From: an uncultured Pelagibacteraceae bacterium
Lineage (GTDB): Bacteria > Pseudomonadota > Alphaproteobacteria > Pelagibacterales > Pelagibacteraceae
Assembly (NCBI GenBank): GCA_902632315.1
Contig: CACPCD010000001.1
Location: forward strand, 124,001 to 188,000
Direction: 5' to 3'
DNA: 64,000 bases
Shown here: piece after piece, positions 24,001 to 37,332 of the stretch
How the letters are laid out: each line of letters starts with the position of its first letter
Numbering within the stretch: the stretch's first letter is position 1
Position numbers and translations under genes: made by a program
The notes under the pieces: generated by a model
Told to the model about the DNA's origin: nothing
Database searches by the model: none
What the model saw: the letters and a program-made list of their open reading frames with translations, nothing else

Positions 24001-24086
24001 GCCCTCGTGGTGAAATTGGTAGACACAAAGGACTTAAAATCCTTGCCGCTTGCGGAGTGCCAGTTCGAGTCTGGCCGAGGGCACCA
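24001..24086 (+). tRNA. tRNA-Leu (TAA)
   Basis: GCCCTCGTGGTGAAATTGGTAGACACAAAGGACTTAAAATCC...AGTTCGAGTCTGGCCGAGGGCACCA; class II variable arm; anticodon TAA; encoded CCA. Confidence 0.96.
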
Positions 24087-24091
24087 TTGAA

Positions 24092-24973
24092 ATGAAAATT
24101 TACGATTGCATAACTTACTATAATGAACCAATGCTTTTTGATTTGAGGCTAAATGTTCTAAATAATTATGTTGATAAATTTATTGTAATAGAAGCAAAAC
24201 ACTCACACAGTGGTAAGAAAAAAAAACTTAATTTTAACATAGATAATTATAAAAATTTTAAAGATAAGATTATATATAAAGTAATTGAAAATGAACCAGA
24301 CGGTATCAAAGAAATAGATTCATCTGACACTGCTATAAATCAAAGCAATCAGAAGAGATTAAATAGTCTTAAAAGAATAGAACAATCATATGATACCGCA
24401 ATCGAATGTCTAAAAGATGCCAATCCTGATGATATTTTTTGTTTAAATGACAGTGATGAAATTCCAAAATATGAAAATTTTAATTTTAAAGAAATAAAGA
24501 ATAATTTGCTTATTGCAAAACTTAAATTATGTTATTTTAAGTTTAATCTTTACTATGATTTGCACCCTTGGCTTGGAACAAGAGCTTGCAAAGTAAAGAA
24601 CTTAATAAGCCCAACATGGTTAAAGTATGTAAAACCTAAAAAATACCCTTTTTGGCGAATAGATACTTTTTTTTCTAAAACAAAATATATGAATGTGAGA
24701 ATTATAGAAGATGGAGGCTGGCATTTTTCTAACTTAAAGACACCAGAAGAAATTGAGGATAAGATGCTTAATTTTGGTCATCACAACGAAGTAGAGGATA
24801 GCGGTATAGGATTGAAAGATATAAAAACTATGATTTCAGAGAAAAAAGTTATATTTGCTCATAATAGAAAACCAGACGATCCAAGTGTAAACCTTTCAAG
24901 GTTATCTGTGAATGAATTACCTAAATATGTTAGTGATAACATAAAAAAATATAATGATTGGTTAGAAAAATAA
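24092..24973 (+). CDS. GT17 family (beta-1,4-mannosyl-glycoprotein N-acetylglucosaminyltransferase-like) protein
   Basis: YDCITYYNEPMLFDLRLNVLNNYVDKFIVIEAKHSHSGKKK, FCLNDSDEIP; ORF-track start inside the tRNA trimmed. Confidence 0.85.
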   Translation: MKIYDCITYYNEPMLFDLRLNVLNNYVDKFIVIEAKHSHSGKKKKLNFNIDNYKNFKDKIIYKVIENEPDGIKEIDSSDTAINQSNQKRLNSLKRIEQSYDTAIECLKDANPDDIFCLNDSDEIPKYENFNFKEIKNNLLIAKLKLCYFKFNLYYDLHPWLGTRACKVKNLISPTWLKYVKPKKYPFWRIDTFFSKTKYMNVRIIEDGGWHFSNLKTPEEIEDKMLNFGHHNEVEDSGIGLKDIKTMISEKKVIFAHNRKPDDPSVNLSRLSVNELPKYVSDNIKKYNDWLEK

Positions 24974-24978
24974 TCTTG

Positions 24979-25740
24979 ATGCAAACTAAAATAAAAAATT
25001 ACGAAGCAATGTTAAAAGATTACACCAAATATTTAAAAGAAAAAAAAATCTACCAAAAAAAAAATAAAATTTTTTATGAAACTACTGTTGAAAAATTGCA
25101 GAATTGGAAAAACACAGATATAAAAAAAATACTTAATTGGTATGAATTTGTAAAAAAAACTGACAAAAGTAAAGTTACCAATGTTCACTTAGAAAAATTA
25201 AATAAGTGGCAGTATAATAAAAAAAAAGGAACTATTTCCCACAAAAGTAAAAAATTTTTTATTGTTGAAGGTAAAAGAGTTGACAATTCTAAAAGAGAAA
25301 TTTCTAGCTGGGATCAGCCATTCTTGACTCAAGTAGGATACAAAGGAGGTGTTATAGGGTTGGTAAGATGTAAAATAAAAAAAATACCGCATTATCTAAT
25401 TGATGCAAAGTTTGAGCCAGGTAATTATAATGATATTCAACTTAGTCCCTCATTACAGGGCACATACTCAAATCTTGATAGGGTTCACCATGGTGAAAGA
25501 AACAAGGTGTTAAATAAGTTTTTTAAGAATAATTTTTCGACAATAAAAAAAATGTGGGTTACTGAGGATGGCGGTCGATTATTTAAAAAAAGAAACTTGC
25601 ATTGGATTATTGATTATAAAGGCAAACCTGCACTTCCAAGCACAAGATATAAGTGGCTAACATTGTGGGAAATAAATAAGTTAATTAAACATGGTCCTAT
25701 TGTAGGTCCTCATTTAAGAGCAATTCTTAGTTTACTGTAA
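24979..25740 (+). CDS. NDP-hexose 2,3-dehydratase family protein (short form)
   Basis: SSWDQPFLTQVGYKGGVIGLVR, LIDAKFEPGNYNDIQLSPSLQGTYSN; ~253 aa. Confidence 0.82.
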   Translation: MQTKIKNYEAMLKDYTKYLKEKKIYQKKNKIFYETTVEKLQNWKNTDIKKILNWYEFVKKTDKSKVTNVHLEKLNKWQYNKKKGTISHKSKKFFIVEGKRVDNSKREISSWDQPFLTQVGYKGGVIGLVRCKIKKIPHYLIDAKFEPGNYNDIQLSPSLQGTYSNLDRVHHGERNKVLNKFFKNNFSTIKKMWVTEDGGRLFKKRNLHWIIDYKGKPALPSTRYKWLTLWEINKLIKHGPIVGPHLRAILSLL

Positions 25741-25741
25741 A

Positions 25742-26680
25742 ATGAAAAAATCTTTAGGTATAATTGGACCAGGCTACCATTTTGAAAAAAATATACTACC
25801 AATACTGAAGAAAAATAAATTCTTTAAGATTTCAGGAATACTAAGAAATAAGAAAAAAAACTTTAAAAAATTTAAAACTTTTACTGAGAAAGATTTTTTT
25901 AAAAAAAAATTCGATTTTGTTTATATAAGTTGCCCAAACAAATTTCATGAAAAATATATCATTAAATCTTTGCAAAGTAACTTTCATGTAATTTGTGAAA
26001 AACCGTTTTTAACGAATGATTTCAACTTAAAAAAGATATTATCTTTATCAAAAATAAAAAAAAAATTGGTATTTGAAGCTTTTATGTATACTTATCATCC
26101 AATTTTTTACAAAATTAAAAATCTTATAAGTGAAAAAAAAAGAGGCAAATTAAGATATATTATTTCAAATTTTAGGTTTCCTTCTTTAGATAAAGACAAT
26201 AATAGATATAAAAAAAATATAGGTGGTGGCTTTTTTTATGATACAGCAACTTATCTAATTTCCTTAGAAAATTATTTATTTAATAACGTTGATATTTCTA
26301 TTAAAAATATTCAACAACTAATCGTTTCCAATAAAATTGATCTTAGGGGATATTTTATTATTAATGATAAAGAATTTAAAAGATTTTATTTTTGGGGTGA
26401 AGGACAAAATTACACTAATAATTTAGAACTTTTTTTTGATAATTCCACAATCTTTGTTGATAGATTTTACAGTAAATTAAAAAATATATCCTCAAGTATT
26501 AAAATATTTGAAAATAATAAGACCAAAGTAATAAAAGTTAATAACAAAATTGATCATTTTCAAGAAATGTTTGATGAAATTTCTCGAAATTACAATAAGG
26601 ATATTTTTCAAAATTTCCACCGACACAAAATTATTAGTCAAATTAAATTGATAAACAAATTTAGTCATATTAAAATTTAA
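25742..26680 (+). CDS. Gfo/Idh/MocA family oxidoreductase
   Basis: GIIGPGYHFEKNILPIL, VYISCPNKFHEKYIIKSLQSNFHVICEKPF. Confidence 0.87.
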   Translation: MKKSLGIIGPGYHFEKNILPILKKNKFFKISGILRNKKKNFKKFKTFTEKDFFKKKFDFVYISCPNKFHEKYIIKSLQSNFHVICEKPFLTNDFNLKKILSLSKIKKKLVFEAFMYTYHPIFYKIKNLISEKKRGKLRYIISNFRFPSLDKDNNRYKKNIGGGFFYDTATYLISLENYLFNNVDISIKNIQQLIVSNKIDLRGYFIINDKEFKRFYFWGEGQNYTNNLELFFDNSTIFVDRFYSKLKNISSSIKIFENNKTKVIKVNNKIDHFQEMFDEISRNYNKDIFQNFHRHKIISQIKLINKFSHIKI

Positions 26681-26690
26681 AATTCATCTT

Positions 26691-27485
26691 ATGAAAAAAA
26701 AAAAATTATCAACTAAATCAAAAATTCAAATTATATCAGATACTAATTCAAAATCATTGAAGATTAAAAATCTTATTAGCAGAAAAATAGAAGATTCTCC
26801 TAAAATAAAACCAAATATAGTTATTGTAATCGGTGGAGATGGTTTTATGCTTCAAACACTTAAAAAAAACAAAAATTCAAAAAAATTCTTTTATGGTATT
26901 AATTCGGGAAATTATGGATTTTTGATGAATAAATTTTCTTCAAAAAATATTCTTCAAAATCTATTTAAGGCAAAAATGATTACTATTTCACCTTTAGAAA
27001 TGACAGTAAAAAATAAAAACAATCAAATGAAAAAATATTTAGCTATCAATGAAGTTTCTATCTTGAGACAAAGTAGACAAGCTGCATCTTTATCAATTGA
27101 GTATGGAAGAAAAAAAATAATTAAAAAACTGGTTGCTGATGGAGTTTTGGTTTCTACACCAGCGGGAAGTACTGCATATAATCTTTCTGTCCATGGACCT
27201 ATTTTGAGTTTAAATTCAAAAAAATTATCCATTTCGCCAATAAGTCCTTTTAGACCAAGAAGATGGCGAGGTAAAATAGTTGGTGATAAGTCAAAAATAG
27301 TTATTAAGAATTTAAATCCGAGCAAAAGACCAATTAGCTCAGTAGCAGATAATATTGAGGTAAGAAATGCAAAAAATATCTTTGTTCAAACAAATAAAAA
27401 AATAAAATTTAATCTTCTCTATGATAAAAATAGAAGTCTTCAAAAAAAAATTAAGATTGAACAGTTAAGGAGAGAAACTTCTTAA
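26691..27485 (+). CDS. nadK: NAD kinase
   Basis: VIVIGGDGFMLQTLK, GINSGNYGFLMN, DGVLVSTPAGSTAYNLSVHGPIL. Confidence 0.93.
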   Translation: MKKKKLSTKSKIQIISDTNSKSLKIKNLISRKIEDSPKIKPNIVIVIGGDGFMLQTLKKNKNSKKFFYGINSGNYGFLMNKFSSKNILQNLFKAKMITISPLEMTVKNKNNQMKKYLAINEVSILRQSRQAASLSIEYGRKKIIKKLVADGVLVSTPAGSTAYNLSVHGPILSLNSKKLSISPISPFRPRRWRGKIVGDKSKIVIKNLNPSKRPISSVADNIEVRNAKNIFVQTNKKIKFNLLYDKNRSLQKKIKIEQLRRETS

Positions 27486-27543
27486 TTTATGAAATTCTTA
27501 GAAAAAGAAAATATTTGAGTAAAGATTTCTTAGAAAAATGTAA

Positions 27544-28743
27544 ATGAAAAAAAAGTGCAATATTTGTAATAAGAAATTCATTGATTATTTATCTTTGGGA
27601 AATCATCCTTGTGCAGATACTTTTCTTAAAAGTAAATACAAAGCAAAAAGATTAAGAAAATATCCTTTAGTGGTAGGATATTGCGAATGTTCGCACATGA
27701 CATCTGTATTTCCTGTACCAAGCAGTGAAAGATATGAAAAATATGATTATTCTTATACTTCTGATAATTCAGTCATTTCAAGATCACATTTTAAGTCAAT
27801 AGCTAAAAAAATCTGCAAGTTGTTTAAAATCAATAAGCATAACTTTATTATTGAGGCAGGAAGTAATGATGGAACTTTCTTAAATGAAATAAAGAAAATA
27901 GCAAAACCTAAGCTCTTAGGAGTAGACCCATCAAAAAATATTTCTTATTTAGCTAAGAAAAAGAAAATAAACACTATGGTAGATTATTTTAACTCAAAAG
28001 TTGCTAAAAAAATTATAACGAAGTATGGTTTTGCTGATGTTATTTATGGTGCAAATGTTTTTAATCATGTAGATGATAATATTGATTTTCTAAAAGCATC
28101 AAACATTTTACTTAAAGATAGTGGAGTTTTGATTTTAGAAGTTCCAGATCTGAATTCATTAATTGACAAAGTAGGATTTGATACAATTTATCACGAACAT
28201 AGACACTATTACTCTCAAAGATCTATTTATAAAGTTCTTGCTAAGGAAAGTTTTGAGATAATAAAAATAGATAACATAAAGTATATGGCTGGTTCAATTA
28301 GAGTTTATGCAAAAAAAACAAAAAGTAATTCAAAATTTTCAATTAATTATAAAAAACTATCCTATGTAAATCATCGTCAATTCAAAAAATTTAAAAAAAA
28401 TATTCATATTGTCATTAATGAAATTCAAAACTTCATTAATTATAATTTAGAAAAACAAAGAATTATATATGGTATTGGTGCTGCAACAAAAGGAAACACC
28501 TTATTAAACTGCTGTAAATTAGATGATAAAAAAATTAAATATATTTTAGAAATGTCTAAATATAAAATTAATAAATTTACCCCAGGATCAGCGATTAAAA
28601 TAATTAGCGAAAAAAAAGTCAAAAATATTAAGGCAATTTTAATACTTCCATGGAATATAACTTCTCATTTATTAAATAAATTTTCAAGCAGGCAGAAAAT
28701 TTTATATACATCTATTCAAAAAGTAGTAAGAAAAATTAAATGA
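27544..28743 (+). CDS. Class I SAM-dependent C-methyltransferase, same family as 3490-4701
   Basis: CNICNKKFIDYLSLG, FIIEAGSNDGTFLNEI, TIYHEHRHYYSQRS, IYGIGAATKGNTLLNCC. Confidence 0.85.
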   Translation: MKKKCNICNKKFIDYLSLGNHPCADTFLKSKYKAKRLRKYPLVVGYCECSHMTSVFPVPSSERYEKYDYSYTSDNSVISRSHFKSIAKKICKLFKINKHNFIIEAGSNDGTFLNEIKKIAKPKLLGVDPSKNISYLAKKKKINTMVDYFNSKVAKKIITKYGFADVIYGANVFNHVDDNIDFLKASNILLKDSGVLILEVPDLNSLIDKVGFDTIYHEHRHYYSQRSIYKVLAKESFEIIKIDNIKYMAGSIRVYAKKTKSNSKFSINYKKLSYVNHRQFKKFKKNIHIVINEIQNFINYNLEKQRIIYGIGAATKGNTLLNCCKLDDKKIKYILEMSKYKINKFTPGSAIKIISEKKVKNIKAILILPWNITSHLLNKFSSRQKILYTSIQKVVRKIK

Positions 28744-29129
28744 AAAAAAAATTAAAAAACAATTTTAAAGACAAAAGAGGTGCTATTATAGATATTTTTA
28801 CTAACGAACCCAAAGATCACTGTACTTTAGTAACGTTTAACAAATCAGCCATCAGAGGAAATCATTTTCATAAAAAAAGTACACAATACTCATTTGTTAT
28901 CTCAGGAAAGTTGAAAATGTTTACTGCTAAAGTGAGTAATAAAGGTTTGTTAGTTGGAAAAATTAAAAAAGATATAGTTAGTTCTAATACACTCATTGAA
29001 CACAAGCCATACATAGCCCATGCCTTCAAGGCGATAAAAAAATCCAATCTATTAGCTTTTGTAAATGGGAAAAGAGGAGGAAAGAACTATGAGAAAGATA
29101 CATTTAGACTTAAGGTAAAGTTAATTTAA
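28740..29129 (+). CDS. Cupin-fold, dTDP-sugar epimerase/isomerase-like protein
   Basis: DKRGAIIDIFTNEPKDHCTLVTFNKSAIRGNHFHKKSTQYSFVISGKLKMFT, HKPYIAHAF. Confidence 0.7.
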   Translation: MKKKLKNNFKDKRGAIIDIFTNEPKDHCTLVTFNKSAIRGNHFHKKSTQYSFVISGKLKMFTAKVSNKGLLVGKIKKDIVSSNTLIEHKPYIAHAFKAIKKSNLLAFVNGKRGGKNYEKDTFRLKVKLI

Positions 29130-30221
29130 TTAAATAATTTTATTATAAACCTGCAAAGTTTCATCTGCACATTTATCCCAAGAAAATAGTTTTGACCGAT
29201 TAATTCCAAGCAATTTTAATTTTTTTTTTAATTCATCAGAATATAAAACTTCTTCAATTTTGTTTTTTATATCCTCTGGCTCCTCTGGATTAAATAAAAT
29301 AGCTGCATCACCAACCGCTTCTATAATTGCTTCATGATTACTTGTAATAACTGGACATCCTAAGGACATAGCCTCTAAAGGAGGGAGTCCTAACCCTTCA
29401 TATTTCGATGGAAATACAAATGCAGAGGCATTTTTATATGAATTACCTAAAATATTATCATCTGCTTCAATTTGAATAATTTTTGAAATATCTATATTTA
29501 ATTCAGAAATTATTTTTTTTTCAGCTGGGGTTATTTTTTCTCCACCACAACATACGATACAAAAATCTTTTTTTAGATTTTTTGAAAGTGAATATGCTTT
29601 TAAAAAATTTAAGAAATTTTTATATTTTTTACGATCCCCTACATATAAAATATATGGTTGCTTAAAGATATTGTGATTTTCTATATCCTTGTTAAAATTA
29701 TGTGGAGCCATGTAAATTACTTTGATCTTATTTTCTGGTATATTATAAAAATCCATTAAATCTAACTTAGTTTTGTTTGAGGGGCATATGATAAAATCAA
29801 TATTTTGTAAGGCTATTCTTTTTGGTTTATAATCTCTAGGAAGATTATACTCTTTAAAATAAATTTCATGAACAAGATCATAAACTGTAATAATTTTTTT
29901 AATTGAATTATTAGCTGAAAAATTTCTCTCATAAAAAGTCTTGTGGATAATATTTGGTTTATAAATTTTGGTAAATAACTTTGAATATATGTGATTAAAC
30001 TCTTTAAATAATTTTCTTGTAAATCTTGGATAATCCTTAATATAAAAACCACTAAAATAATTGAGATTATGATTTTTTAGGAAAATATTATTATTTAAAG
30101 GTGCTAATATTTTTGCCTCAACATCTTTTTCAAGTAATTTGTTGTGCAAATTTAAAAAATATCTTGAGATACCACCGTATTTTTGATGAAAAAAAATCGA
30201 ATAATCAAAAATTATTTTCAT
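29130..30221 (-). CDS. GT4 family glycosyltransferase
   Basis: YGGISRYFLNLHNKL, ASAFVFPSKYEGLGLPPLEAMSLGCPVITSN. Confidence 0.94.
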   Translation of the reverse strand: MKIIFDYSIFFHQKYGGISRYFLNLHNKLLEKDVEAKILAPLNNNIFLKNHNLNYFSGFYIKDYPRFTRKLFKEFNHIYSKLFTKIYKPNIIHKTFYERNFSANNSIKKIITVYDLVHEIYFKEYNLPRDYKPKRIALQNIDFIICPSNKTKLDLMDFYNIPENKIKVIYMAPHNFNKDIENHNIFKQPYILYVGDRKKYKNFLNFLKAYSLSKNLKKDFCIVCCGGEKITPAEKKIISELNIDISKIIQIEADDNILGNSYKNASAFVFPSKYEGLGLPPLEAMSLGCPVITSNHEAIIEAVGDAAILFNPEEPEDIKNKIEEVLYSDELKKKLKLLGINRSKLFSWDKCADETLQVYNKII

Positions 30222-30329: not shown

Positions 30330-30384
30330 TGGTGCCCCCGCACGGATTCGAACCGCGGACCTATTGATTACAAATCAATTGCTC
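30330..30384. repeat. attL-like direct repeat: 3' half of tRNA-Thr
   Basis: TGGTGCCCCCGCACGGATTCGAACCGCGGACCTATTGATTACAAATCAATTGCTC, identical 55 bp to 37257-37311. Confidence 0.95.
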
Positions 30385-30447
30385 GTGCAGTTCTGCTCGT
30401 TGGGATACAATACTAATTCAGCATCACAGAGTCAAAAGTAAATATCC

Positions 30448-30464
30448 GACAACACTATGACAAC
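30448..30464. promoter_or_regulatory. Candidate integrase arm-type sites near attL
   Basis: GACAACactatGACAAC, shares GACAACACTA with 37158-37167 near attR. Confidence 0.5.
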
Positions 30465-30479
30465 AACATAGGAGGATAT

Positions 30480-31460
30480 ATGGCTACAATTTACAAAAAT
30501 AAGGGTAAGTGGGGTGCTTGGATAAGACGTTCATTTCATAAACCAATTCACAAAAGTTTTATATCAAAACAAGATGCACAACGTTGGGTTAGAGAAACTG
30601 AACGCTTGATTGAAGTAGGTCAGTTTGTAGATTTGTCAGAAGCAAACAAGACTACACTTAAAGCATTACTTGAACGTTATGAGCGTGAAGTATCTGCAAA
30701 GAAGCGAACCACCGCAGATAAATATTTAATCAAAAATATTATGCGACACGAGATTGTTTCAAAGGTCCTCGCTCACATAACAACAACAGATGTTGCAAAG
30801 TTTCGTGATGAAAGGTTAAAGACTATTAGCGGCAGTTCAGTCAATCGTGAATTAAGTATATTGAGTGATTGTATCAAAAGAGCAATCAATGAGTGGGGGT
30901 GTTACATACGAGAGAACCCAGTCAAAGCTAACTTACGATGTAAGGAAAATAACAAACGAAATAGACGACTAGAAGCTGGGGAGTACGAGAAGCTTATGAG
31001 TTCTTGTAAAAGTAACAGAGCGTTTTGGTGCCCAGTAATTGACTTTGCAATACATACTGGAATGCGTAGAGGGGAGTTATTAAACATCACTTGGGATATG
31101 GTCCAATGGGATAAAAAGTTTATTAAATTACCCGCACATATTACCAAAACTAATAGGGACAGAAACGTACCGCTTCAACCTCACGCCATAGAAATATTAC
31201 AAAACTTACCTCGGTCCCTGGGCGGTAAAATATTTCCCATAGGCATAAAAAACTTTGAGCGTAGTTGGAGGGCAATCTGTAAGAGAGCATCTATAACTGG
31301 ATTAAGATTTCACGACTTAAAACGTGAGGCGGTGTCCAGGTTATTTGAGAAAGGTTTATCTGTATCAGAGGTGCAAACATTCGTAGGTAATTCGTTTGCA
31401 ACATTGTCAGTTTATACAGAACATAACTCAACAACACTTGCAGAAAAGTTAGCAAAATAG
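30480..31460 (+). CDS. Tyrosine recombinase/integrase
   Basis: HTGMRRGELLNITWDMV, RFHDLKREAVSRLFEKGLSVSEVQTFVGNSFATLSVYTEH; preceded by AGGAGG. Confidence 0.93.
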   Translation: MATIYKNKGKWGAWIRRSFHKPIHKSFISKQDAQRWVRETERLIEVGQFVDLSEANKTTLKALLERYEREVSAKKRTTADKYLIKNIMRHEIVSKVLAHITTTDVAKFRDERLKTISGSSVNRELSILSDCIKRAINEWGCYIRENPVKANLRCKENNKRNRRLEAGEYEKLMSSCKSNRAFWCPVIDFAIHTGMRRGELLNITWDMVQWDKKFIKLPAHITKTNRDRNVPLQPHAIEILQNLPRSLGGKIFPIGIKNFERSWRAICKRASITGLRFHDLKREAVSRLFEKGLSVSEVQTFVGNSFATLSVYTEHNSTTLAEKLAK

Positions 31461-31500
31461 ACTCATAATTGGTGCCTAAAACTTGACCCAATTGTTCACT

Positions 31501-31533
31501 TGACCTTGTATTAGCGTATGTTAAACAAGGTCA
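31501..31533. terminator. Inverted repeat downstream of integrase
   Basis: TGACCTTGT (31501-31509) and ACAAGGTCA (31525-31533), 9-bp perfect arms; no strong T-run. Confidence 0.35.
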
Positions 31534-31807
31534 TTCGAGCAAAGAAAGAGTTTTATCGATTGTCGCAGAAAGTTATTACAATCGTGTGTAAATGAAGTCA
31601 CAGAAGTTGCTCATCTAATCTTCACAAACTGAAACGAGAAAATTCAGATTGGATTATAAAAATGATATTAGATGACAAATTATTTGTGAGAGATAACTCG
31701 AACATCATAATTGCAGATTTTACTATGTACTCACTGGCCAGTGTGTATTTCATCTTAAAGTATCAAAGCTTCATCATATCATCTTAATCCTGGTAGATGA
31801 ATTTCTC

Positions 31808-31843
31808 GTTGCGTGTGGGAGTAACCACCTCCCACCGCACAAC
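31808..31843 (+). promoter_or_regulatory. Hairpin immediately upstream of the ribosome-binding site of ORF 31858
   Basis: GTTG...TGGGAG-taaccac-CTCCCA...CAAC followed by acataGGAGGacatATG. Confidence 0.45.
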
Positions 31844-31857
31844 ACATAGGAGGACAT

Positions 31858-32289
31858 ATGTCCAACGAGAAAAGAGGATTAGGCGATAACTCTATAAACA
31901 CGTCTGATTATATTGGTGGAGTCGAATACTTGCACTCTGCTTTAGATGAAGCAGTTAAGCTAATCGTAAGGTTATCAAAACGAAATGCAAAGACTGATAA
32001 ACTTCTAAACAACAGCATCTATGCAAAAAATAATTTGCAGCGGGGTGTACATCTAAACAAAGCTATTGAAGTTCAGAGTAAGAATAAATCTGAATTAGAA
32101 AGTTTTGATAAGATATTAACTGCAATCAATAACAGACAAGACATACATACTGGATTGAACAAATCTCATAAGCTAGAAATGTGCAGTCAGTCGGGTAACT
32201 TTGGTAACTATATTGCAAACAATACTGGTGGACCATTCGATAAAGATGTAGTCGATGTTGCATTCAGAGAGGCGGATAAAGATGAGTAA
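31858..32289 (+). CDS. Hypothetical element protein
   Basis: 143-aa ORF with strong AGGAGG; stop overlaps next start. Confidence 0.7.
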   Translation: MSNEKRGLGDNSINTSDYIGGVEYLHSALDEAVKLIVRLSKRNAKTDKLLNNSIYAKNNLQRGVHLNKAIEVQSKNKSELESFDKILTAINNRQDIHTGLNKSHKLEMCSQSGNFGNYIANNTGGPFDKDVVDVAFREADKDE

Positions 32290-32785
32290 TAACTACAAAG
32301 GTTATCTGCCTGGAATGAATCCAAATCGTACACGTAAAATTTTTCAAGATGATGACGATAGGTATTATGCTTATGAAAGTTCTACTGGACGATTTGTAAA
32401 CAATTTAGGTCAAGAAGTTAAAACTGCAAAAGAGGCAATCGCATTCAACGATAAACTTGATGCAGAATATAAACAGATGTTCCCACCGCAAAAGTCGGTG
32501 GGTGCAAAACCATTTAGAGCTAAACCTCAAAGAATGACACCAACAAAAAGTTTTCAGCAAATTAAAAAATCTGAAAAACAGTTGGGCAATGTAAATACTT
32601 TGGGTGCTGGAGTGTTTTACGATTTTAATAGTCCAGTTGATAAGTTGTTAGCACAACGTAAGGAAATGGAAAAATCAAGAGCTGAAAGTATTGAAGCTGA
32701 AAAAAGATTTAGACAATCCATGCGTACCACTGATGAGGATAAGGGTAAAGGTTTACCTGGAATATTGGGGGTAGATAATGCGTAG
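32282..32785 (+). CDS. Hypothetical element protein (start trimmed to MSNNYKGYLPGMNPN)
   Basis: Translationally overlaps neighbouring ORFs. Confidence 0.7.
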   Translation: MSNNYKGYLPGMNPNRTRKIFQDDDDRYYAYESSTGRFVNNLGQEVKTAKEAIAFNDKLDAEYKQMFPPQKSVGAKPFRAKPQRMTPTKSFQQIKKSEKQLGNVNTLGAGVFYDFNSPVDKLLAQRKEMEKSRAESIEAEKRFRQSMRTTDEDKGKGLPGILGVDNA

Positions 32786-33125
32786 AAAAAAGCTAGTCAA
32801 TCCTGGTGTTAAATATCCAAAATCAAAACTTGTAAGAGAAGCATTAATACCGAAACGTAAACGTGAGCATACGTATACTACGTGTGCTTGTGGCAATGTT
32901 GATTACAAGACACTTGTTTATTTAGCAAAAAACTCAATCAGAGTAATTGATAACTTGGCAAAGACGTTAGCATCAATGGAAGAAAAATTTGATGAAACGA
33001 AAAAAACAGTTGAGTACATCACTAACTCTGCATCAAAGCAGTTAGATACTAAAGATGCACAAATTAATTTCCTAAAAGACAAACTAGAAGAAATGGGGGT
33101 AAGAACAAATGAAACGGAACAATAA
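32778..33125 (+). CDS. Hypothetical coiled-coil element protein
   Basis: 115 aa; TTCACGNVDYKTL then heptad-rich LASMEEKFDETKKTVEYITNSASKQLDTKDAQINFLKDKLEEM. Confidence 0.65.
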   Translation: MRRKKLVNPGVKYPKSKLVREALIPKRKREHTYTTCACGNVDYKTLVYLAKNSIRVIDNLAKTLASMEEKFDETKKTVEYITNSASKQLDTKDAQINFLKDKLEEMGVRTNETEQ

Positions 33126-33516
33126 CATCGATAAGGAAATTTACTCTGCACCAACACTTAAAGAAGCATTGAAGATAGCAATGTCAGAAACACCATTAGA
33201 AGAATTTGAAATGGACGTAATACAAACGCTATCACAATACGATGACTGGAAAAGAGATAACCCAGGTAAGTCGTATGATGATTTCTTAAAAGAAATGGGA
33301 CTCGACAGAGTAAAACTAAATGCTGGAGGATTAAGTAGGGAAGCATTAATTGATATGCTGAAAAACGAATATCCGAAAGAATATGCAAGACTCAAAAAGG
33401 GAAACTTATCTCAATCTGAATTAAAAAAGTTATTAGATAATTTAGACAAAGACGGAGTACCATTTAATACAGGTGGTCTTGTAAGTAACTACAAAAAGAA
33501 TGCGAGGAAGCCGTGA
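33109..33516 (+). CDS. Hypothetical element protein with two GGL motifs
   Basis: LNAGGLSREALIDML and FNTGGLVSNYKK; overlaps next GTG start. Confidence 0.65.
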   Translation: MKRNNNIDKEIYSAPTLKEALKIAMSETPLEEFEMDVIQTLSQYDDWKRDNPGKSYDDFLKEMGLDRVKLNAGGLSREALIDMLKNEYPKEYARLKKGNLSQSELKKLLDNLDKDGVPFNTGGLVSNYKKNARKP

Positions 33517-35588
33517 GTTTAAATCCTATCGCAAATCTTCTAAAGACTGATGCAATATTGTTTTGGAGTACGTATGGTACAAAAGCAGTTGCAGAAAGTT
33601 GGACTCAAAGACTAAACAAACAAATAAAATCTGTTGAACAAGTCAAAGAGTATACAAATATAAATATAGCAACGGGGCGAGAAAGTTTAATTGTAGATGT
33701 AGACTTGGATTGCCCTGAAGCAAATCTGTTAGCAGATTATTTTTTACCAAAAACTGAATTAGAGTTTGGACGTGAAAGTACACCTAGGGCACATAGATTG
33801 TTTAAGGTTATAGACCTACATTTAAAGCATACTAGAACGTATTGTAGCTTCGCAGACGCTAAAAAATCAATGCTGGTGGAGGTTAGAGCTAACAAACACT
33901 ATACGATGTGCTGGGGACAATATGAGAACCAGGAAAAAGTAGTTTGGTCCAATAGTGGATTACCTACTGAAATTTCTTGGGAAGCATTAAACAAAGCAGT
34001 AGCATTGTTAGGTGTAGCTTGTGTGATACTTCGTAAATATTCTAAACCAGGTACACACGACCAATACTTACGACTTGTTATAAATAGTTTGTGGCAGCAT
34101 AAGTTGGAACAATCTGATTGTGAGAAAATTATAAAAGCAGTTCTTGCAAATTCTAAATGTGAAAATTGTAACGATAGTAAGTTAGCAAAAATAAAATCTG
34201 TATATGCAAAGGATAGGACTGAACAAATACAAGGTCTACCTAGTCTTGCAACAGAGTTTAACTGGAGTGAAGATGAGGTCAAAGACTTCAAAAAACTGTT
34301 ATTCAAAATAACTGGTAGAGATGTTGTTCCAGAGTTTACTCACGAGTTTGTAAATAGAATTGCTTATATGATGAAGCAAAAGAAATATTACGACTTGGAA
34401 GATAAAGAAATGTACGATGCAGAAGCTATCGATGTTAAGTATGCAAAATACTTTCCAAACTATACACCGCTAAAGTGGTGGAAGATGCACAGAGATAGCA
34501 AAGTATGTGTAGATTTTGCTTATAAACCAAACGACAAAAATAGATTTGTACACGTTAATAAAAAGCTAATGATTAACGTATATGAACCTAATCTAATAAC
34601 ACCCGATAAAAGCGTAGATACAGATGTGTATTTTGATTTGTTAAAATGTGTAATACCTCACGATGCAGAGCGTAACCATTTTTTAGATTGGATAGCATAT
34701 CAATATCAAAATCCTGGTAAGAAGATTAGACACGCTCTAATCATGCAGTCCGATGAATTTCAATTAGGTAAGGGAAGTTTATTTGACGTGCATAGAGATA
34801 TACTTGGTTATAATAACTCCAGGAAGATTGAATTAGAAGAAGCACTAGACAAAGGCAAGGGCTATCTAATCAATGCGCAAACTGTGTTAATAGATGAAGC
34901 TAAATCTAGCGGCAGTTGGAGTGAGAAAGCAAAACTAATCAATACACTTAAAACAATTATTAGTGAGGGTACAATTGGTATACGTCAGCTATACAAAGAA
35001 TATGCTGAACAAGATACTTGCACTAACTATTGGATTAATACTAACTACAAAGATGCGTTTCCGCTTCCATATAACGAGGTAAGATACTGGGTATATTTTA
35101 GTCCTGGTAAACGAAACCAAAACTTGCTGGATAGGTACCACCTACATAGAGAAAAATATAATCTTGCTAGTGGTGTTTATGCAGAATTATTAGACAGAGA
35201 TATTAGTAAGTTCAAACCGCTGGGTGTTGCACCGCATACTCAATACAGAGATGAAATGAGTAAGTTAGCAGACAGACCTTTGAATGATTTAGTCAAAGAG
35301 TTGTTTGAGCAAGGCGTATTTCCGTTTGATAGGGATATGGTTACAACAATCGAATTGTTTGATTATTTGAAAGCAGAGAAGCGAGTAAAAATAACTAGAG
35401 AACGTGAGATTGCAAATGCACTAGAGTTAATTGGAGGCCGTAAAAAACCTGGGTGTCCAGTTGAACAAGTAGGGCAGAAAGTAACTATTTGGGTAATTAG
35501 AGATTGGGAAAAATACAAAAATCATACTGCCGCAGAATTAGGCAGAGTGTATGTCCCGTTTTATTCAGATAGTCGAAATAAGAAATAG
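33513..35588 (+). CDS. PrimPol-like primase fused to DUF5906/SF3-like helicase domain (GTG start)
   Basis: N-terminal NIATGRESLIVDVDLDCPEA / FGRESTPRAHRLFKV / VEVRANKHYTMCWG; C-terminal HALIMQSDEFQLGKGSLFDVH, QTVLIDEAKSSG (Walker B-like), YWINTNYKDAFPL. Confidence 0.8.
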   Translation: MSLNPIANLLKTDAILFWSTYGTKAVAESWTQRLNKQIKSVEQVKEYTNINIATGRESLIVDVDLDCPEANLLADYFLPKTELEFGRESTPRAHRLFKVIDLHLKHTRTYCSFADAKKSMLVEVRANKHYTMCWGQYENQEKVVWSNSGLPTEISWEALNKAVALLGVACVILRKYSKPGTHDQYLRLVINSLWQHKLEQSDCEKIIKAVLANSKCENCNDSKLAKIKSVYAKDRTEQIQGLPSLATEFNWSEDEVKDFKKLLFKITGRDVVPEFTHEFVNRIAYMMKQKKYYDLEDKEMYDAEAIDVKYAKYFPNYTPLKWWKMHRDSKVCVDFAYKPNDKNRFVHVNKKLMINVYEPNLITPDKSVDTDVYFDLLKCVIPHDAERNHFLDWIAYQYQNPGKKIRHALIMQSDEFQLGKGSLFDVHRDILGYNNSRKIELEEALDKGKGYLINAQTVLIDEAKSSGSWSEKAKLINTLKTIISEGTIGIRQLYKEYAEQDTCTNYWINTNYKDAFPLPYNEVRYWVYFSPGKRNQNLLDRYHLHREKYNLASGVYAELLDRDISKFKPLGVAPHTQYRDEMSKLADRPLNDLVKELFEQGVFPFDRDMVTTIELFDYLKAEKRVKITREREIANALELIGGRKKPGCPVEQVGQKVTIWVIRDWEKYKNHTAAELGRVYVPFYSDSRNKK

Positions 35589-35608
35589 AAATACAAGGAG
35601 GTAAAAAT

Positions 35609-35857
35609 ATGGGTAGAAGTACCAAAACAAAAACTAATTTGCGTACGCATATGGTACCAACAACACCCGACGAAGTGTTGAAACGTATTATGACAGATTT
35701 CTCTACCCACCTACGTAGGTCAAAAGAAACTTACGCAATCTCAAAAGAGATGCCAAAGTTTCCAATGGTCGACTATGAGGAATTGAGGAGGATTGTACAA
35801 TCAAACTTTCAATACCTTGGAGTACAGATACGTAAGTGGAAACGTGAAAACACATAA
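35609..35857 (+). CDS. Hypothetical small basic element protein
   Basis: 82-aa ORF preceded by AAGGAGG. Confidence 0.6.
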   Translation: MGRSTKTKTNLRTHMVPTTPDEVLKRIMTDFSTHLRRSKETYAISKEMPKFPMVDYEELRRIVQSNFQYLGVQIRKWKRENT

Positions 35858-35890
35858 TTAGAACGAAGCGATGCAAATTGTAGAGTTGTT

Positions 35891-37067
35891 AAATTTTCAG
35901 TCCAGCACCCTAGACAGAAATATTTTTTAACACTTTGCAATTTAGCTTCGTATGGTTCGAATTTGAAAAAGTTTTGAGCGTGGTTAAGAGGCGGGTATAT
36001 GCTGGTCCAGTAACCTTTTGTAACCCCAGGATAACTCCGAATGTACGAGAGTAAAGTTACGTTTTGTACGAGTATAAAGTTACCTTATGATACCTCCGAA
36101 AGTTAGCTTTTGTTAACTCGAAAAATAAAGATTAGTGAGTCATACCAACAATTTTTTTAAGCTAACAAATTGCAAACTTAACTAGGTAACTGCGGCATCT
36201 AATTATCGTACACGTGTACTTATTCGTACATAATCTTCGTACATTATTCAGTCCATATTCAAGGTTACCATTTAGCGTAACATTTACATTTATCCGTAAG
36301 TATTTATGCGTAAATATTTTCTACAAAAAGCTGGACAATGCTGGACTAAAAAAACAAAAGCGTAACTTTCAGAGGTTACGTTTTGTTACGTTTATTCCTG
36401 GTAAATTAATTTTTTAAATATGGACTTTTATGGACTTTGTGTACTGATGTGTACTTACTCAAACTTACTCTGATTGTTCCGTTCAGTTCCTTTGAAAGTA
36501 AGCAAATGTAAGCTTGTAAAAGTATACTAATGTATACTTGTAAATACCCTTATGTCACCCAGGGTTATCCACGTTTCGCGAGTCTTTATGCGGCTAAAAT
36601 AAAAAATACAGTCGGGGTACATGACTAGTATACCTCAATCAATTTAACTTGCTAACCTCGTAAACTTTTGGGGGAATTATTTGAGTAAAGCTTTCCTAGA
36701 ATTTGCGTGGTAACACCTAGTACACATAGGACCAGTATTGGTTTCAAATTCACTAAATACAATTGTCATTTCGCATTTAATTTTTTCGTGATTACCGCAA
36801 AATATACATCTATCAATTACTGGAGTTTCGTAGAGTGACTTATCGTTTTCTTTACCAGTTGCATTGTACCAGGCCATATCATTTAGAATATACCGATTGC
36901 TGACTCATACATAGCAAAATTTTTAAAATTTTCAGTCCAACGTACACTTGGGACTCCAAAAATGATTTCGCGCTCTACGAGTCTCTAAATCAAGCTATAT
37001 ACCCTAATGCAGTGGGACCCCTTTACAAAAAAAGGGTGGTGGGGGGTTGGACTTTGTTGGACTTTTG
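35891..37067. promoter_or_regulatory. Repeat-dense, mostly non-coding tail: candidate origin/partition/packaging region
   Basis: Tandem word pairs at 10-bp period, AAATTTTCAGTCCA x2, multiple TGGACT/AGTCCA, palindrome GTACACGTGTAC (36208-36219), DnaA-box-like TTATCCACG (36565-36573). Confidence 0.6.
36677..36877 (-). CDS. Small zinc-ribbon-like protein
   Basis: CIFC ... CTRC paired CxxC motifs; lies in an interruption of the repeat-dense region. Confidence 0.5.
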   Translation of the reverse strand: MAWYNATGKENDKSLYETPVIDRCIFCGNHEKIKCEMTIVFSEFETNTGPMCTRCYHANSRKALLK

Positions 37068-37082
37068 AAAACGTCTTGGTAC

Positions 37083-37130
37083 CTCTATTGCTTGTCCGCG
37101 CGAGTCCGTAGGACGAGCGCAGTAGAGATT
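37083..37130 (+). terminator. Structured hairpin followed by T-run (terminator or structured RNA)
   Basis: CTCTATTGC (37083-37091) pairs with GCAGTAGAG (37119-37127); inner GCGC-GA-GTCC-GTA-GGAC-GA-GCGC hairpin; then ATTTTTTG. Confidence 0.55.
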
Positions 37131-37146
37131 TTTTGACTCTTGTTTT

Positions 37147-37176
37147 GACAACAATCTGACAACACTAATTGTTGTC
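37147..37176. promoter_or_regulatory. Candidate integrase arm-type sites near attR
   Basis: GACAACaatctGACAACACTAATTGTTGTC: two direct (11-bp period) plus one inverted copy. Confidence 0.5.
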
Positions 37177-37256
37177 AGTAGACTCCGTATAGGATAAACT
37201 GGGATTTAGAAAGTAGAAATATAAACTAGTGTTTACGAAACTTTTTACTTGGTGTG

Positions 37257-37332
37257 TGGTGCCCCCGCACGGATTCGAACCGCGGACCTATTGATTACAA
37301 ATCAATTGCTCTACCAGCTGAGCTACAAGGGC
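37257..37332 (-). tRNA. tRNA-Thr (TGT)
   Basis: GCCCTTGTAGCTCAGCTGGTAGAGCAATTGATTTGTAATCAATAGGTCCGCGGTTCGAATCCGTGCGGGGGCACCA. Confidence 0.96.

Follow-up and report, generated by a model that had tools for sequence, protein, structure and literature searches.

The DNA analysed here (the window) is a 64,000-nucleotide stretch of contig CACPCD010000001.1 from an uncultured Pelagibacteraceae bacterium, and the subject of this work is its segment 30330-37311, probably an integrated phage satellite of 6.9 kb from a family found in SAR11 bacteria. To judge from its sequence, the element is a mobile insertion at the 3' half of a tRNA-Thr gene, encodes its own PrimPol-helicase and has no virion genes. 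Of the general traits of phage satellites, integration, own replication or regulation genes and the lack of own virion genes are seen in the element, and packaging in helper particles is predicted. For the family, there is good support for satellite biology; the window copy, too, is most likely a satellite and would borrow the particles of a helper phage. Since the family is free of virion genes, copies itself, jumps between sites and carries in sister elements a packaging gene resembling that of SAR11 viruses, the element most likely parasitizes SAR11 phages. The initial annotation had proposed a satellite or self-replicating integrative element, a reading supported by syntenic copies, by free relatives and by relatives bearing a terminase small subunit (TerS).

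SAR11 bacteria are among the most abundant bacterial groups of the ocean, and their phages shape carbon flow. If the satellite family is real, phage parasites join pelagiphage infections and may move defence genes. No report of SAR11 phage satellites was found in the literature searched; the loci, attachment (att) junctions and candidate helper group named here make pelagiphage satellites directly testable.

Architecture of the element

The 6,927-bp unit (30330-37311) is bounded by two identical 55-bp direct repeats (30330-30384 and 37257-37311), whose sequence matches the 55 nt at the 3' end of tRNA-Thr(TGT), encoded at 37257-37332 on the minus strand; both the repeats and the tRNA reported in the initial annotation were confirmed. 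The right end keeps a complete tRNA-Thr gene, and a unit of 6,927 bp is predicted to be excised. The G+C content of the element is 0.358, that of the flanks 0.25 and 0.32. Ends and genes are as follows.

30330..30384, plus strand: attL, 55-bp copy of the tRNA-Thr 3' half, exact repeat
30480..31460, plus strand: tyrosine integrase, 326 aa (PF00589, PHROG 1), with variant catalytic motifs HDLK/GNS
31858..32289, plus strand: o1, 143 aa, with a GLGDNS/GIGHNS motif at the N-terminus; L139 and L141 have positional counterparts
32255..32785, plus strand: o2, 176 aa, low-complexity; homologue in L139 with 64% identity
32778..33125, plus strand: o3, 115 aa, coiled-coil type
33109..33516, plus strand: o4, 135 aa, of a family kept across the replicase subtypes of the element
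33513..35588, plus strand: replicase, 691 aa, AEP/PrimPol N-terminus and DUF5906 (NrS-1-like) helicase
35609..35857, plus strand: o6, 82 aa, orthologue in L139 (1.3e-42)
36677..36877, minus strand: o7m, 66 aa, putative zinc-ribbon (CxxC..CxxC), common to TerS-bearing relatives
37257..37311, plus strand: attR, 55-bp repeat within the intact tRNA-Thr
37257..37332, minus strand: tRNA-Thr(TGT), the target gene, intact

The coupled run of four small open reading frames (ORFs) leading into a PrimPol-helicase was borne out: o1 to o4 and the 691-aa replicase gene overlap end to start, and o6 follows. The "one more small ORF" of the initial annotation is o6, and the conserved minus-strand o7m had been missed. 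Scans with Pfam, PHROG and PADLOC found no virion, terminase, lysis or relaxase families in the window element, in agreement with the earlier statement that virion, terminase, lysis and conjugation genes cannot be recognized; with Pfam and PHROG this includes the relaxase and conjugation genes of integrative conjugative or mobilizable elements. There is no recognizable cargo gene, and PADLOC returned no defence gene apart from a weak match of o3. The latter (Csx21, 1e-4) covers the coiled coil and was set aside. Although o2 can be aligned with positional counterparts across subtypes, PHROG scans of the o2 and o4 families gave chance-level matches only. The AlphaFold model of o4 is helical, of low confidence (predicted local distance difference test, pLDDT, 59) and uninformative.

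Insertion and empty sites

Sequence comparison indicates that 30330-37311 is an insertion which is mobile between genomes and sites, because tRNA-Thr sites are empty in other SAR11 genomes and the cassette occurs at other sites. The initial annotation had named two observations that would speak against it, virion genes among the small ORFs and the lack of any empty-site allele, and neither was made. The survey comprised 55 tRNA-Thr loci of the genus, the window included, with the upstream NAD-kinase gene on the same contig; this gene adjoins tRNA-Thr at 15 loci and lies within 4 bp of it at 13. A SpoU/TrmH-type methyltransferase gene (labelled rlmB) is adjacent to tRNA-Thr in the genus. The window replicase was present in none of 40 relatives of the host. 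Other segments at the same locus in congeners are also bounded by copies of the tRNA 3' half.

In the window, three sugar/polysaccharide-type genes separate the NAD-kinase gene (26691-27485) from attL. Close counterparts of the three are missing from the relatives' tRNA-Thr loci, so the exact empty allele of the window strain was not found. No tRNA scar is visible in front of them, and sugar/polysaccharide-type genes, including one for a glycosyltransferase, lie on both sides of the NAD-kinase gene (24050-30221).

Related elements at other sites

Element L139 resides in tRNA-Asn between 55-bp repeats, has the gene order of the window element (integrase, o1, o2, o3, o4, replicase, o6) and encodes a replicase 74% identical to that of the window. 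Shorter versions were found in tRNA-Gly (L140; 41-bp repeat, replicase 61% identical) and in tmRNA (L141; 27-bp repeat, replicase 59% identical). Sites used by related elements are tRNA-Leu, -Ser, -Val, -Gly and -Thr, with subtype 2, which encodes an integrase of 545-558 aa, in tRNA-Leu (L121, L143) and tRNA-Ser (L142). The same tRNA-Thr as in the window is occupied in Pelagibacteraceae GOM-A1 (L108, from the genome of L077) by an element with a different integrase at the opposite end; its DUF5906 replicase has a TOPRIM-like N-terminus, and homologues of o4 and o7m are present. In a third type, a family A DNA polymerase (PolA) replaces the primase, as assigned by Pfam in L109, L110 and L112 and by alignment and profile in L111.

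The o4 family spans the replicase types (L140 o4 versus L112 o4, 6e-53), and window o7m matches L112 with 3.5e-21. It appears from these comparisons that replicases are swapped while the small-gene block persists, which suggests that the block serves a purpose other than replicase specificity. Family members are uncommon: a window-type replicase (E<=1e-6) was detected in 9 of 398 genus genomes, the broad replicase profile matched in 10 of 298 order-level genomes, and o7m homologues occur in 14 of 398 other genomes. Genes for tmRNA in SAR11 are insertion targets not only in L141 but also in L118 and L119 (near 9.5-14.4 kb); in L118, a thymidylate synthase-like gene and an o7m homologue are located next to 26-bp repeats that lie 4 kb apart.

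Free circular or concatemeric relatives

Natural excised or concatemeric DNA occurs for relatives of the window element. The IMG/VR database contains two complete elements of subtype 2, L124 (7,799 bp with a 99-bp terminal repeat; 7.7-kb element) and L125 (7,972 bp with a 123-bp terminal repeat; 7.85-kb element). Each has one attP per unit, formed by a tRNA-Leu core joined to both element ends, and L124 encodes a RusA-like resolvase. L127 is bridged from end to start by L126, which overlaps both of its termini at 99.8-100%, so this 13.8-kb version is circular or head-to-tail; it carries a 966-aa type IIG restriction enzyme as cargo (L127, 1511-4411). Neither PolA-type elements nor o7m were found in IMG/VR.

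Packaging gene of sister elements and links to pelagiphages

A TerS gene closes the operons of L110, L111 and L112, elements tied to the family by o4, o2 and/or o7m. TerS was assigned by PHROG 51 in L112 (1.5e-14) and L111 (9e-12) and by alignment in L110; in L112 it is located inside the 39-bp att repeats. In a comparison set of 50,697 phage records, the top TerS matches were the pelagiphages HTVC027P (2e-15 with L112 TerS), 023Pt_psg01 (2e-13) and HTVC023P, and the next group of phage matches followed at 2e-4. The primases of subtype 2 match those of the same HTVC023P-type pelagiphages (1e-26), with 023Pt_psg01 as best phage match of their N-terminus (3e-16), and a 64-aa ORF of L142 matches HTVC027P. 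No DNA match was detected between the window element and HTVC023P-type pelagiphages, and o4, o7m and the 273-aa o4-type protein of L107 were not found in the phage records. HTVC023P-type phages have been described as being among the most abundant pelagiphages, in a report that does not mention satellites (PMC9599517). Two phage contigs in IMG/VR (L128, L129) combine T7-like replication genes with a relative of the DUF5906 primase and a TerS related to that of the satellites; they are possible helper relatives.

Integrase and replicase

The integrase (30480-31460), placed beside one end of the element already in the initial annotation, was verified by matches to PF00589 (3.5e-20) and PHROG 1 (3e-53) and is 72% identical to the L139 integrase. 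Within residues 278-312, HDLK replaces HxxR and GNS replaces GHS. As L139 has the same substitutions, the protein is perhaps a catalytic variant rather than a product of decay.

By homology and predicted fold, the window replicase is a replication-initiation primase-helicase. It matches the Pfam family DUF5906 with 2.3e-8 (35.1 bits versus a cutoff of 27.6) and PHROG 1156, "DNA primase", with 2e-24. Taken alone, it gives a Prim-Pol match of only 0.01; its homologues carry AEP-TOTE (1.1e-7), and their profile matches PDB entries 7nqf/7nqd (6e-8). The AlphaFold model (pLDDT 70) is poor before residue 157, and because it is unreliable at residues 1-156 the AEP assignment rests on the homologue profiles. 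The C-terminal half of the model matches the C-terminal helicase region of NrS-1 (2e-16), and the model also matches the SaPI5 primase-helicase (1e-9).

Non-coding tail and cis sites

The initial annotation had overstated the tail as a repeat-dense region of about 1.4 kb; its repeats amount to a few tandem pairs of 10-23 bp and to 8-9-mers in three to four copies each. What sets the tail apart is a motif that recurs in relatives, together with a hairpin resembling a terminator and pairs of arm-type sites; such pairs also occur at the left end.

30448..30454, plus strand: arm-type site GACAACA, first of the left pair, 11-bp spacing
30459..30465, plus strand: arm-type site GACAACA, second of the left pair
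35964..35977, plus strand: conserved non-coding motif TGAAAAAGTTTTGA, downstream of the replicase operon
37083..37127, plus strand: terminator-like hairpin followed by a T run (fold -23.4 kcal/mol, z -2.55)
37147..37153, plus strand: arm-type site GACAACA, first of the right pair
37158..37164, plus strand: arm-type site GACAACA, second of the right pair, with an inverted copy at 37170-37176

The paired GACAACA heptamers, which lie about 65-110 bp inside the att copies at both ends, are candidate integrase arm sites. None of 500 shuffled end pairs shared such an 11-bp-spaced heptamer pair. Identical geometry with a motif of their own was seen in L139 (GGTCGCA), L108 (TGTAGTC) and L112 (TGCGTAG). 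In L121, L142, L143 and L124, pairs spaced 11 bp were found towards the tail, and the opposite side holds related copies.

The motif TGAAAAAGTTTTGA follows the replicase operon in most PrimPol-type members and is missing from PolA and TOPRIM types; within IMG/VR its exact, extended form occurs only in the circular relative L124. A role as packaging site was considered at first; the restriction of the motif to PrimPol-type replicases favours a function as candidate origin or regulatory site instead.

Proposed life cycle and alternative explanations

Upon infection by a SAR11 phage, the integrase would excise a 6.9-kb circle via the paired GACAACA arm sites, and the replicase would start copying, perhaps at the TGAAAAAGTTTTGA region, to give head-to-tail copies. 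These would be packaged by the helper terminase into helper particles and delivered to new SAR11 cells. In the sister elements, a satellite-encoded TerS similar to that of HTVC023P-type phages would redirect packaging; as the window element has no TerS, the packaging proteins of the helper would have to recognize it either directly or by way of o2-o4. A more far-reaching scheme is tentative and less likely than not: a satellite family of SAR11's own, in which o2-o3-o4 would be a new helper-interaction module kept across replicase swaps (PrimPol, TOPRIM-type with DUF5906, PolA plus TerS), HTVC023P-type phages would serve as helpers, and the integrases would in addition mobilize defence and pilin cassettes that lack an integrase of their own and have the same att core and arm-site design.

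Several findings weigh against a satellite. Searches with PHROGs and a TerS hidden Markov model detected TerS neither in the window element nor in the elements closest to it, and the window tail did not match known phages or pac/cos-like DNA. The integrase departs from the catalytic consensus at two motifs, a feature shared with L139. The circular IMG/VR relatives represent free or concatemeric DNA, not particles or packaging, and a degenerate-pattern search of IMG/VR yielded no close relative of the window replicase. An element lacking TerS, capsid-remodelling and relaxase genes as well as a match to a phage packaging site could instead be a plasmid-like, self-replicating integrative element that moves by vesicles, transformation or chance transduction and hijacks no specific helper. 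We consider this unlikely, given that sisters sharing o4, o2 or o7m encode a TerS nearest to that of pelagiphages, that subtype-2 primases match the same pelagiphages, and that known satellites such as the phage-inducible chromosomal minimalist islands (PICMI) also do without capsid-remodelling genes (PMC10803314).

A prophage degraded by loss of its structural genes could likewise leave an integrase, a phage-type replicase and small unknown ORFs at a tRNA, but the ORFs of the window element are all intact and overlapping, the compact layout is kept at other sites, and complete free relatives of 7.7-7.85 kb have no virion genes, which makes this origin very improbable. The element might also be one of the additive genomic islands or defence cassettes of the tRNA-Thr hotspot and have no link to phages, since the same tRNA-Thr holds tandem cassettes in many relatives, with the tRNA 3' half at their borders and, in several, restriction genes. 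Those cassettes are, however, mostly 0.7-3 kb long and devoid of integrase and replicase, whereas the window unit has both, contains no PADLOC defence gene and has syntenic relatives at other sites; it is extremely unlikely to be such an island.

Comparison with known systems

As a presumptive satellite, the window element resembles PICMI of Vibrionaceae (PMC10803314) in its small size, tyrosine integrase, DUF5906 primase, large non-coding stretch, small unknown ORFs and lack of capsid-remodelling genes; accessory anti-phage genes, present in some PICMI members, occur here in relatives only. It differs in being integrated in tRNA-Thr of a Pelagibacterales genome and not next to fis in Vibrionaceae, and in the extra conserved o2-o3-o4 block and o7m of its family. 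PICMI primases carry DUF5906 or DUF3987. A helper and packaging as concatemers are putative for the window element. The AlpA regulator (PF05930/PF12728) had no match in any window ORF, again unlike PICMI, and a sub-cutoff HTH_17 match (0.0031) was obtained in the relative L108 only.

Phage-inducible chromosomal islands (PICI), including Staphylococcus aureus pathogenicity islands (SaPI), likewise combine an integrase with a primase-helicase, the latter similar in fold as seen with SaPI5, and carry TerS as do the sister elements L110-L112. The window element is set apart by the absence of TerS and capsid-morphogenesis genes, by the DUF5906 helicase family and by its SAR11 host. Marine virion-encapsidated integrative mobile elements (VEIME; Eppley et al. 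2022, as cited in PMC10803314 and PMC11389934) are similarly marine, integrative and satellite-type, and occur as concatemers inside marine virions. Tycheposons and additive tRNA islands of streamlined bacteria have been described as cargo carriers of 4-200 kb (PMC10872708); they share the tRNA target, tyrosine recombinase and tRNA-derived repeats, but the window unit is a compact replicating element without metabolic cargo.

Cassettes at the tRNA-Thr locus

In many SAR11 genomes, the tRNA-Thr locus contains tandem integrase-less cassettes, mostly of 0.7-3 kb with 1-5 ORFs mostly on one strand, each opening with the 3' half of the tRNA plus a leader of some 90 bp. At the tRNA-Thr/rlmB loci L033-L091 (e.g. 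L044, L049, L076 and L070), cassettes lie between copies, 46-54 bp long, of the 3' half of tRNA-Thr, have matched arm-like repeats at both ends and carry restriction, pilin or unknown cargo, resembling an integron-like array anchored on a tRNA. Cargo at the locus includes restriction proteins of the MmeI, type III, Mrr and McrB-N kinds as well as pilins. The left and right ends of one cassette share 4.5 heptamers on average, compared with 1.6 after re-pairing (p 0.001). As the cassette ends resemble satellite ends, satellite-type integrases could plausibly mobilize the cassettes in trans. Other streamlined bacteria also have additive tRNA-repeat islands (PMC10872708).

Larger cassettes (oriented coordinates) are present in L080 (9104-15687), L085 (4457-10571) and L072 (12384-18493) and encode coiled-coil/JetC-like proteins of 1,555-1,648 aa or MmeI systems. 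The GACTACA/GACTTCA-type repeats near the left ends of L080 and L085 resemble those of the L077/L108 satellite and not those of the short cassettes.

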